A stretch of DNA of 32,218 nt from Alphaproteobacteria bacterium (lineage in GTDB: Bacteria; Pseudomonadota; Alphaproteobacteria; Bin95). Both the position numbers and the translations under genes were made by a program. Positions 6,882-25,282 of this stretch are shown here, piece after piece; positions within the stretch are counted from its first letter, which is position 1, and each line of letters opens with the position of its first letter. The notes under the pieces are model-generated. The model saw nothing but the letters and a program-made list of their open reading frames with translations. It was not told the origin of the DNA and made no database searches. Location of the stretch: assembly GCA_022821735.1 (NCBI GenBank), contig JAJECZ010000129.1, forward strand, positions 1 through 32,218, given 5' to 3'.

Positions 6882-6957
<76 letters not shown>

Positions 6958-21388: not shown

Positions 21389-22981
21389 TTATGCGCCTGC
21401 CTTTATCATGTCTGCGGCCTTCTCGGCGATCATCAGCACAGCGGCGTTGGTGTTGGCCGAGACCATGCGCGGCATCACCGACGCGTCGACCACCCGAAGG
21501 CCCCCCAATCCGCGCAGGCGGAGCGAGGAATCAACCACTGCCATAGGGTCGTCGCCCATCTTGCAGGTGCCGATGGGATGATAGACCGTCGCGCCGTTGG
21601 AGCGGCAGTAGTGGAGGAGTTCGTCGTCGCTCTTCCGCTCGGCGCCAGGAATGGTTTCGCACTCGATATAGGGCGCGATGGCGGGCTGTTCGAATATCTT
21701 TCGCGCGAGCTTCAGCGCGCCCGTCATGGTATCGCAGTCGGTCTGCGTGGCGAGATAGTTCGGACGGATGACGGGATGGCGGTCCGGATCGTTCGCGCCG
21801 ATATGGATCGAGCCGATGCTTTCCGGCCGATGCTGCCAGAAGCCGAGCGTCATGCCGGGATAGTCGTCCAGAACGCTGATGACCCCGTCCTTGTAGCTCG
21901 CGGGCGCGAAGCTGTACTGCACATCCGGTGTCGCCATGCCCGGCATGATCTTGACCGAGGCGCTGACATTGCCCGGCGCGGCGGTCAGCAGGCCGGTGCG
22001 TGTGGTCGCGTAGCGCACGGTTTCCCAGAGCAGGGGCAGTCCCTTCGAACGCTCGTTGAAGGTGCGGATGCCTTTCGCCTTCATGCAGATGCGGGCGACA
22101 TAATGGTCCTGGAGGTTCTCTCCGACGCCGGGCAGGTGGTGGACCGGTTCGATCCCGAGCGGCTTGAGCCGCTCGCCGTCGCCGATACCCGACAGTTCCA
22201 GCAGTTGCGGCGAAGCGATGGATCCGGACGACAGGATAACCTCGGCGTTGGCCCGGACCTCTCGGACGGTATTGCCCTGCCGGAACACGACCCCGACCAC
22301 GCGCCCCTCTTCGACGACAAGCCGCTGGGCAAGCGCATGCGTCTCCACCCGCAGGTTCGTCCGGCCGTCCGTCTGGCGCAGATAGGTCCGTGCGGTGCTC
22401 TCCCGGCGGCCGTTGCGGATGGCGTGCTGGAAGTAGCCTACACCTTCCTGCTCGCCGTCATTGTAGTCGTTGTTGCGCGGGATGCCGGCCTCCATGCAGG
22501 CTTCGATGAACAGCCTCGTCAGCGGATGCTGCTCGATCGGGTCGATGACGTTGATCGGGCCGCCCCGGCCGCGAATCTCCTCGTCGCCGCCCGCCCGGTT
22601 CTCGAACCTCTTGAAGTAGGGAAGCACCTCTTCGTAGGACCAGCCGCGGTTGCCGAGCTGGGCCCATCCGTCATAGTCCTCGGGCTGGCCGCGCACGATG
22701 AGGTGGCCGTTGATCGCGGACGAGCCGCCCAGCACCTTGCCGCGTGGCCAGTGAATCGCCCGGTTCCCGCTGTTCTCCTCCTTCTCGGTTGCGTAGCACC
22801 AGTTGACGGAGGTGTCGTACAGCGTCTTGAAGAAGCCGGCGGGTATATGGATGAAGGGGTTGAGGTCGCGCCCGCCCGCCTCCAGCAGCAACACGCTGGC
22901 CGCCGGGTTCTCGCTCAGGCGATTGGCCATGACGCAGCCGGCGGACCCGGCGCCGATAACGATATAGTCGAAGCGGTTCAT
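21389..22981 (-). CDS. GMC family FAD oxidoreductase (choline-dehydrogenase-like)
   Basis: 530 aa from MNRFDYIVIGAGSAGCVMANRLSENPAASVLLLEAGG...WPRGKVLGGSSAINGHLIVRGQPEDYDGWAQLGNRGWSYEEVLPYFKRFE...YHPIGTCKMGDDPMAVVDSSLRLRGLGGLRVVDASVMPRMVSANTNAAVLMIAEKAADMI. Confidence 0.92.
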   Translation of the reverse strand: MNRFDYIVIGAGSAGCVMANRLSENPAASVLLLEAGGRDLNPFIHIPAGFFKTLYDTSVNWCYATEKEENSGNRAIHWPRGKVLGGSSAINGHLIVRGQPEDYDGWAQLGNRGWSYEEVLPYFKRFENRAGGDEEIRGRGGPINVIDPIEQHPLTRLFIEACMEAGIPRNNDYNDGEQEGVGYFQHAIRNGRRESTARTYLRQTDGRTNLRVETHALAQRLVVEEGRVVGVVFRQGNTVREVRANAEVILSSGSIASPQLLELSGIGDGERLKPLGIEPVHHLPGVGENLQDHYVARICMKAKGIRTFNERSKGLPLLWETVRYATTRTGLLTAAPGNVSASVKIMPGMATPDVQYSFAPASYKDGVISVLDDYPGMTLGFWQHRPESIGSIHIGANDPDRHPVIRPNYLATQTDCDTMTGALKLARKIFEQPAIAPYIECETIPGAERKSDDELLHYCRSNGATVYHPIGTCKMGDDPMAVVDSSLRLRGLGGLRVVDASVMPRMVSANTNAAVLMIAEKAADMIKAGA

Positions 22982-23167
22982 CCCGCCTTGCCTCCCCCGT
23001 ACGGTTCGCTGTGGCGGCGAATGTCGGATACTACGGTGCATCGCAGCTTACGATGGAGCGCGCCGAATTCAACAATCGAGGATCGCTGGACTATCGTCCC
23101 GGATACCCGGAAGGCGGGTCTCCATATCGTGGATGTGCCGGTTCACGATGCAAACCGCCCGGGCGCC

Positions 23168-24862
23168 TCACTCCGGCTTGCGGAAGAGCTGGATGCCCCA
23201 GGCCAGGTGTCCGGCATCCGCGGCCTTCACCCAGTTCTCGAGGCCGACGGTCATCTTGTCGAGATACCCGGCCGAGGCGCCGTTTTCGCGCAACTCGTCG
23301 TAACGGGCCGTGAGGTCCTTCCGCACCCGGTCGTAATGGGTGCGGAGATGGCCTGTCATGTTCTCCTGTGCCAACACCTCGAAGCCCAGAGCCTGCGCTG
23401 CTTTGCGGTAGTAGTGCGCGGAGCCGAGGCTGTTGAGCTGGAGCCGGTCGTAGACGGGCTGGAGCACGCCGTCCGGCACGTCGTCGGCCTGCATCGGGTC
23501 GGTGAAAACAAAGTGGCCGCCCGGCTTCAGCACGCGCCAGACCTCGGCCAGCACCCTGTCGCGCTGGTCCGAGTGCAGGATGGCGTCCTGACTCCATACC
23601 GCGTCGTAGCTGGCGTTCGGATCGGGGATGTTTTCGAAGACGCCGTGCACCACTGATATCCGGCTGCCGAGCTTTGCCTGCCGGTTCCTGGCCCGGTTGG
23701 TGTCGTTCTGCGTCTCGGAGATGTTCAGGCATGTGGCCGTGCAGCCGGTCCGCTTGACGAGGCGCCGCATCGAACCGCCGTAACCGGCCCCGATGTCCAT
23801 GACGCGGGTGTCGGGGCCGATACCCGGCAGCATCGCCATCATCCGGTCGACGGTTTCGGCGCTGGCCTCGCGGATGTCCTGCGTCGTCTCGTAGATGCCG
23901 ATATGCAGGTCCTCGCCGCCCCAGACCATCGAGTAGAACGTGTCGGCGTCGTCGCTGTCGTAATAGTCCTCGGTGACGTCGCGAACGTCGATCTCGCCTT
24001 CCTCGCGGACGCCGCCGCCCCAGCGCACGACATGCAGCGTGGACTTCTCGGCAACATGAATGAAGAAGTCCGGTTCGTTCTCTGCGTAAGTCTCCTGGAA
24101 GTCGCCATAGGTTCGCACCCGTGCGAAACCCGCCTCGCTGAGCAGACGGCGCACGTAGTTCTTGCGAATCGGACTGAGGTTGAGCGTGTAGCCGGAACCG
24201 TCGGCGAAACTGTACTTCATCCGGACGAGGCTGTCGTCGATATATTCGGGCTCCGCATTCACTTCGTCGCCGCAGTAATAGTATTTGTGCTTGGACGAGA
24301 AGCCCTCATCCAGCATGGCGTCGTAGTTACGCTGGTCCAGGATCAACATCCCGTCATGCTTCAGCGCGGCGTAGAACTCGGCCAAGGCGCGACGGCGGTC
24401 CTGCTCGTCATGCAGGTGGGTGAACGAGTTGCCGAGGCAGATGATCGCGTCGTACTTGCCCTGGATATGACGGTTCAGCCAACGCCAGTCGGCTTGGACG
24501 GTTTTGAGGATCAACCCGCGCGCCCTGGCATTGTCGAACGCTTTGGCCAGCATCGTCGCCGACCCATCGGTCGACGTCACATCGAAGCCGGCCTCGGTCA
24601 GTCGTACCGAGTGGAAGCCCGTGCCACAGGCGACGTCCAGCACGGACTCCTTGCCGCGGGCGCGAAGCACGTCGATGAAGAACTGTCCCTCGCTCTCGGC
24701 GCGCGCCGCCCAGTTGATCAGCTCATCCCACTTCTCAACAAACGAGAGGATGTACTCGCCGCGGTAGAGATCGGTTTCGCGGTCCTCGAGCGGGTCGTCG
24801 CTGTAGCTCTGGCGGTCGAGCGCAAACTCCGAGTTCGTCGTCAACAGGGACGCATCTGGCAT
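23168..24862 (-). CDS. Fused glycine/sarcosine N-methyltransferase + sarcosine/dimethylglycine N-methyltransferase (glycine betaine synthesis)
   Basis: 564 aa with two SAM methyltransferase domains: N-term VEKWDELINWAARAESEGQFFIDVLRARGKESVLDVACGTGFHSVRLTEAGFDVTSTDGSATMLAKAFDNARARG..QADWRWLNRHIQGKYDAIICLGNSFTHL (GSMT-like) and C-term FYSMVWGGEDLHIGIYE..VMDIGAGYGGSMRRLVKRTGCTATCLNISETQN (SDMT-like); SD GGGAGAAGG upstream of ATG 24862. Confidence 0.92.
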   Translation of the reverse strand: MPDASLLTTNSEFALDRQSYSDDPLEDRETDLYRGEYILSFVEKWDELINWAARAESEGQFFIDVLRARGKESVLDVACGTGFHSVRLTEAGFDVTSTDGSATMLAKAFDNARARGLILKTVQADWRWLNRHIQGKYDAIICLGNSFTHLHDEQDRRRALAEFYAALKHDGMLILDQRNYDAMLDEGFSSKHKYYYCGDEVNAEPEYIDDSLVRMKYSFADGSGYTLNLSPIRKNYVRRLLSEAGFARVRTYGDFQETYAENEPDFFIHVAEKSTLHVVRWGGGVREEGEIDVRDVTEDYYDSDDADTFYSMVWGGEDLHIGIYETTQDIREASAETVDRMMAMLPGIGPDTRVMDIGAGYGGSMRRLVKRTGCTATCLNISETQNDTNRARNRQAKLGSRISVVHGVFENIPDPNASYDAVWSQDAILHSDQRDRVLAEVWRVLKPGGHFVFTDPMQADDVPDGVLQPVYDRLQLNSLGSAHYYRKAAQALGFEVLAQENMTGHLRTHYDRVRKDLTARYDELRENGASAGYLDKMTVGLENWVKAADAGHLAWGIQLFRKPE

Positions 24863-24887
24863 AGTTCGATCCTTCTCCCGGTTATTC

Positions 24888-24908
24888 GCCGGTCCCGTCC
24901 GGACCGGC
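24888..24908 (-). promoter_or_regulatory. Perfect hairpin in the 5' leader of the betaine methyltransferase gene
   Basis: GCCGGTCC-CGTCC-GGACCGGC, 8-bp perfect stem, 25 nt upstream of the ATG and just upstream of the SD. Confidence 0.45.
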
Positions 24909-25143
24909 TTGTCATGGACCGGCCCGGTAAAGAGCCGATGCACGTTGGATGCCGTTTGCGCCATAAGTCGGGATCGGGCCTGCAATGAGGCCCCGTCCCC
25001 TCAAAAGTCCGGCGCGTCCTGCCCAGGCAAGCGCTTGCGCCGTTGCAAGGATGCCGGCAGGGGCTCGCTGCGGTCGATATGTGCCGCAGTGGAGGCCGCG
25101 GTCGCCCGGAGGCGAAGCGGCACTCTCGAAGTCAGTTCAATGA

Positions 25144-25198
25144 CAAGGGAAGCTCCCGGGGCCGTTCGGCCGCTCGGACGAGCCACAGCTTCCCCTTG
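25144..25198 (-). other. Candidate structured RNA / three-way junction upstream of the betaine methyltransferase gene
   Basis: Minus strand CAAGGGGAAGCT gtg GCTC-GTCC-GAGC GGCC-GAAC-GGCC ccggg AGCTTCCCTTG: 11-bp outer stem with one bulged G, enclosing two perfect 4-bp tetraloop hairpins. Confidence 0.45.
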
Positions 25199-25282
25199 AA
25201 GATGGAACGACGATATTACGGGATGAGGCTCTTGTAAAATTTCCGGGCCGCACCGGTTCGGAAGCCGGTTCGCGGCAAGGCT

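Follow-up and report, generated by a model that had tools for sequence, protein, structure and literature searches.

A conserved, folded leader precedes the betaine-synthesis gene GSMT-SDMT in one alphaproteobacterial genus and is a candidate cis-acting regulatory region

In five species of one alphaproteobacterial genus, the gene encoding the fused glycine/sarcosine/dimethylglycine N-methyltransferase (GSMT-SDMT) is preceded by a promoter-like block and a leader of about 345 nt. The block, the leader, the folding of the leader and their linkage to the gene are all conserved. The analysis started from a 32,218-nucleotide contig of an Alphaproteobacteria bacterium (the window), in which the features of interest lie on the minus strand (Table 1). 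We favour, with about even confidence, the explanation that the leader is a clade-specific structured 5′ untranslated region that acts in cis and sets the amount of the betaine-synthesis enzyme. As no intrinsic terminator was identified in the leader (0 terminator-like sites), the proposed regulation would probably be at the level of translation.

Table 1. Features of the GSMT-SDMT locus, in window coordinates.
Feature	Position	Strand	Observation
Promoter-like block	25209–25250	−	Conserved; TTTACA 25238–25233, 17 nt, TATCGT 25215–25210 (or TAATAT 25218–25213)
Structured leader, about 345 nt	24863–25206	−	Conserved; identity 0.66–0.89 to ATG (five species); single-sequence z −4.65; alignment z −8.1
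Three-way junction of the original prediction	25144–25198	−	Outer stem core 25194–25187/25154–25147 largely kept, inner hairpins partly
Long-range helix GGCUCG (25184–25179)/CGAGCC (25067–25062)	25062–25184	−	100% of cells paired
Long-range helix 25193–25185/24955–24947	24947–25193	−	97.5% of cells paired
Hairpin CUGCGG...CCGCAG	25068–25089	−	Two pairs changed on both sides, five species
Hairpin GGGGACGGGGCC...GGCCCGAUCCC	24970–24999	−	Three pairs changed on both sides
Hairpin AUCGGCUC...GGGCCGGU	24916–24941	−	Both-sided changes in two pairs, one of them a G-C to C-G flip
Hairpin GCCGGUCC-GGACG-GGACCGGC	24888–24908	−	97.5% of cells paired; a single double change, G-C to A-U
Shine-Dalgarno region GGGAGAAGGAUC	24869–24880	−	Sequence
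GSMT-SDMT	23168–24862	−	Gene behind the leader; two methyltransferase domains

Conservation of the locus

Eight genomes of the genus were sampled, five of which carry GSMT-SDMT at 89–100% protein identity; the full-length orthologues in the four congeners are 89–93% identical. The leader was present directly before the gene in all five carriers, as a single copy per genome by covariance-model search, and was absent from the three congeners without the gene. The promoter block and the whole leader showed 74–87% identity overall among the carriers. Identity across the five species was 0.25–0.54 upstream of the promoter, rose to 0.84 at about 25250 and then stayed at 0.66–0.89 to the ATG at 24862, with the fourfold-degenerate sites of GSMT-SDMT at 0.77. 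Conservation in close relatives, which the original prediction had named as a check on itself, was thus found in five carriers from the promoter through the ATG.

Three of the carriers share an upstream CaiB gene. The spacer from CaiB to the promoter is only 18–23% identical in this trio and rich in gaps; the promoter is 84–92%, the junction 88–91% and the remaining leader 79–86% identical, with 1–2 gap columns per 280 in the leader beyond the junction. The two other carriers have different genes upstream of the promoter. Given that promoter, leader and gene are conserved while the spacer is scrambled and the upstream gene varies, the sequence comparison identifies the three as one unit that travels together.

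GSMT-SDMT is followed directly by a gene encoding a GMC oxidoreductase of the choline-dehydrogenase-like family (window 21389–23041, minus strand), as it is in the congener G006, and a tRNA gene is present at 6885–6957 (minus strand). Actinobacterial GSMT-SDMT proteins (L092, L094, L095 and L097–L100; Mycolicibacterium and MAGs) are 67–70% identical to the alphaproteobacterial protein of the window, which suggests horizontal transfer.

Promoter-like block and extent of the leader

The original prediction had placed a TAATAT and a TTTACA element just upstream of the fold, and both are present where it put them, 14 nt apart. A consensus promoter scan favoured TTTACA with TATCGT at the ideal spacing of 17 nt (25238–25210) over TTTACA with TAATAT; this arrangement agrees with the consensus at 9 of 12 positions, where chance would give 0.1 such sites. 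The scan match and the conservation bear out a promoter-like block at this position. Among 14 genomes of the order that were scanned, a 31-nt promoter pattern was present in the five carriers, at one site per genome, and absent from the others. With a predicted mRNA start near 25203–25206 and the ATG at 24862, the leader would be about 341–345 nt long, in support of the long leader of about 335 nt that had been proposed for the GSMT-SDMT mRNA.

Alternatively, the fold had been suggested to be a separate small RNA, which is unlikely because the conservation is unbroken to the start codon and no terminator is present. That the junction is a small RNA in its own right, or a generic repeat, is favoured by its place right at the promoter. 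Set against this reading are the single copy per genome, the conservation that runs on to the ATG, the lack of a terminator and a junction fold that is marginal (below); it is largely refuted, and we consider it barely tenable.

A small protein or leader peptide encoded within the leader was also considered. The ribosome-site-like GGGGAAG (GGGGAC in G001) and the GTGGCT that follows it are kept in all five species, and some of the variation in the first codons falls at third positions, as would suit translation from the GTG at 25186 (61 codons in the window). Against coding, the frame lengths of the five species are 61, 16, 90, 108 and 17 codons, frameshifting single-base gaps occur, and an overlapping longer frame gave no Pfam match. 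As the frames are not conserved, the candidate starting at GTG 25186 was rejected, and small-protein coding is very unlikely.

Folding and covariation of the leader

RNAalifold analysis of the five leaders against conservation-preserving column shuffles gave a z-score of −8.1 for the sense strand and −6.1 for the antisense strand; four coding windows from the same species gave −0.5 to +2.9 in the same test. The window's own leader scored −4.65 against dinucleotide shuffles, none of 100 of which folded as well. In the consensus fold, derived from the same five-sequence alignment that was used to score covariation, 92.1% of cells were paired (a value reached by 1 of 500 shuffles) and nine pairs were changed on both sides (reached by 7 of 500). 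The covariation is modest because only five sequences were available. The best-supported hairpins are 24941–24916, 24908–24888, 25089–25068 and 24999–24970, and about 10 nt separate the second of these from the Shine-Dalgarno sequence downstream. The Shine-Dalgarno region may also pair with the leader's 5′ end (25210–25194), a helix with weak support in the models: 84.6% of its cells are paired, and double changes are absent.

The locus could instead be a regulatory region at the level of the DNA, with operators around and below the promoter; the RNA structure would then be a by-product of GC-rich inverted repeats. In favour of this, the promoter block ranks with the most conserved parts, and the antisense strand also folds significantly. 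This reading fits poorly with conservation that extends over 345 nt to the Shine-Dalgarno sequence almost without gaps, with a sense fold that beats the antisense fold, and with kept helices in which pair variation consists mainly of double or G-U changes; it is considered unlikely.

The three-way junction and competing long-range helices

The helices of the proposed three-way junction were found in the window as described: minus-strand CAAGGGGAAGCU (25198–25187) pairs with AGCUUCCCUUG (25154–25144) in 11 pairs with one bulged G, and the abutting hairpins GCUC-GUCC-GAGC (hairpin 1) and GGCC-GAAC-GGCC (hairpin 2) lie inside this outer stem. The 75-nt junction alone folded with a z-score of −1.15 (22 of 200 shuffles as good), and a trimmed 55-nt element with −2.06 (5 of 200), with values of −1.1 to 0 in the relatives. 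The paired cells in the relatives amounted to 92% in the outer stem, 95% in hairpin 2 and 80% in hairpin 1. The innermost pair of the outer stem changes from U-A to C-G in one species; a U-A pair of hairpin 1 is lost in three of the five species, so the three helices are not all kept in the relatives. Across the five species, covariation and paired cells in the junction were no better than in shuffles. Given the broken hairpin, the shuffle-level covariation and the competing pairings of the outer strand, the data do not support the three-way junction, as a static fold, in the role of functional unit.

Two long-range helices provide such competing pairings. The helix 25184–25179/25067–25062, in which three pairs vary by G-U changes only, is mutually exclusive with hairpin 1, and the helix 25193–25185/24955–24947 is mutually exclusive with the outer stem. 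For the window's species, the junction is predicted to form with a probability of about 0.9 when 150–260 nt have been transcribed and 0.15 at 300 nt; at full length, the junction and the long-range fold are predicted to be 0.7 kcal/mol apart. Replacement of the junction by the helix 25193–25185/24955–24947 is predicted in the window's species and not in all five: the predicted preference is for the long-range fold in the window's species, for the junction in G006, for the helix 25184–25179/25067–25062 in G001 and for neither in G005. Since fold preference differs between species, a switch between the folds is put forward from these models as a hypothesis and not as a result. A change in Shine-Dalgarno accessibility between the two folds was sought in the models and none was observed; the predicted accessibility was equal, so the model offers no route by which a switch would act on translation.

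Searches for known RNA families and homologues

At the gathering score, Rfam 15 identified only the tRNA in the whole window. In the leader, matches at E up to 10 were limited to chance eukaryotic microRNA and lncRNA families and osmY, all far below gathering, and neither a riboswitch nor any other Rfam family was found in any of the leaders of the 80 GSMT-SDMT orthologue loci. The original prediction had recognised no known riboswitch class in the fold, which agrees with these searches. Known RNA families are excluded at the thresholds tested. The open-access literature searched described no leader or riboswitch control of GSMT-SDMT.

Covariance models were built for the 3′ domain (R1) and the 5′ domain (R2) of the leader. 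No leader homologue outside the genus was found with R1 and R2 in 76 orthologue loci, and only the five known copies were strong matches to R1 in 289 genomes of the class and to R1 and R2 in 14 genomes of the order; all other matches had E above 0.003 and were chance-like. No further homologues were found in the viral contigs searched. Without a homologue outside the genus, no independent lineage tests the structure.

A metabolite riboswitch of a new class within the leader, responding to SAM, SAH, glycine or betaine, would suit the position before an osmolyte gene that consumes SAM, and long, conserved, little-paired runs such as CAUUGAAC.GACUUCGAGAG (25143–25123) would suit a binding site. 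It is nevertheless improbable, given the lack of an Rfam riboswitch at E 10 or in the 80 leaders, the confinement to one gene in one genus, where most metabolite riboswitches span many genes and taxa, and the lack of an evident expression platform.

GSMT-SDMT leaders in other clades

A genome scan identified 80 GSMT-SDMT loci, and neither the sequence of the window's leader nor its models matched any locus outside the genus. Many clades possess a region of their own, 270–385 nt long and upstream of the gene, that is conserved within the clade and begins at a promoter-like block. The sense-strand fold z-score was −9.05 in Roseibium; five other sets gave −4.7, −3.9, −3.4, −3.3 and −2.9, and some sets gave values close to 0. 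Across 81 loci, with relatedness ignored, the 300 nt before the gene (mean z −1.40) folded better than coding sequence (−0.37; paired p = 2 × 10−7), than the region 700–1000 nt upstream (−0.36; p = 3 × 10−6) and than its own reverse complement (p = 8 × 10−4); the comparison sets were coding sequence of the same gene, this upstream region and the reverse complement.

A larger three-way junction was observed in Roseibium and relatives, with a P1 of GUCCGGCA/UGCCGGAC around two hairpins, about 120–200 nt upstream of GSMT-SDMT (L059:2307–2380, L063, L067, L079, L082, L054 and L086). In this junction, 88.5% of cells were paired, and the covariation score was above that of all 500 shuffles. A promoter-like block TGTCGCA-N~9-TTGAA-N2-GTCG was identified in Rhodobacterales at about −260 to −340 before GSMT-SDMT (L061, L065, L070, L076, L078, L081, L080, L088, L071, L083, L044, L045 and L043). 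In this block GTCG is repeated directly at a distance of about 21 nt, which may mark an activator site.

The occurrence of long, conserved GSMT-SDMT leaders of unrelated sequence in several alphaproteobacterial clades, more folded than coding or upstream sequence, is as would be expected if a bound protein, or sensing of ionic strength or temperature by the leader, tuned translation without a small ligand. Fast sequence turnover with retained folding is also more easily reconciled with this than with a fixed ligand pocket. On the other hand, the sequence conservation within the genus exceeds what plain stability would need, and the fold comparison lacks intergenic control regions of other genes. 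We regard this alternative as possible, if doubtful.

Discussion

For the preferred explanation, a structured 5′ untranslated region that acts in cis, we infer the following course of events. Transcription would start near 25203–25206, and the 5′ arm of the leader would first fold on itself as the three-way junction. As the distal segments 25067–25062 and 24955–24947 emerge, they may capture the 5′ arm into a larger multibranched fold; stable hairpins would stand immediately before the ribosome-binding site. The balance between the folds, and with it translation, would be shifted by a signal, for which salt or ionic strength, osmolytes, metabolites of the SAM cycle and proteins are candidates.

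In a broader and decidedly speculative form, which we hold to be rather improbable, the GSMT-SDMT leaders across Alphaproteobacteria would form a functionally equivalent, fast-diverging group of large RNA switches, which respond to osmotic state or to a metabolite of the betaine pathway and gate de novo betaine synthesis; the genus studied here would carry one lineage of the group. Taken together with the analogous leaders of other alphaproteobacterial clades, a leader of about 345 nt that is both conserved and folded would suggest that betaine synthesis is controlled at the RNA level. Named strains exist in clades with analogous leaders (Roseibium, Nitratireductor, Chelativorans and Mameliella).

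The SAM and SAH riboswitches (Rfam SAM-II, SAM-V, SAM/SAH and SAH) likewise lie before a gene of the SAM cycle in Alphaproteobacteria; the leader described here, however, is unmatched by them at E 10, is several times longer and is limited to one gene in one genus. The glycine riboswitch (RF00504) is similar in that it might, in principle, respond to the substrate of GSMT, but it has no match in the leader, and its sole match among the 80 loci is on the opposite strand. This match, in Phycocomes zhengii (L089:1873–1961, minus strand), lies about 540 bp upstream of GSMT-SDMT. The leaders of Roseibium, Rhodobacteraceae, Nitratireductor and Chelativorans resemble the window's leader in having a promoter-like block about 270–385 nt upstream and a conserved leader, yet they cannot be aligned with it and are unmatched by R1 and R2. 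Autogenous ribosomal-protein leaders and thermosensor leaders are long, structured 5′ leaders that control translation. They differ from the candidate leader described here in gene function, length and signal; they share with it a lineage-specific sequence, several hairpins that extend up to the Shine-Dalgarno region and an organisation without a terminator.
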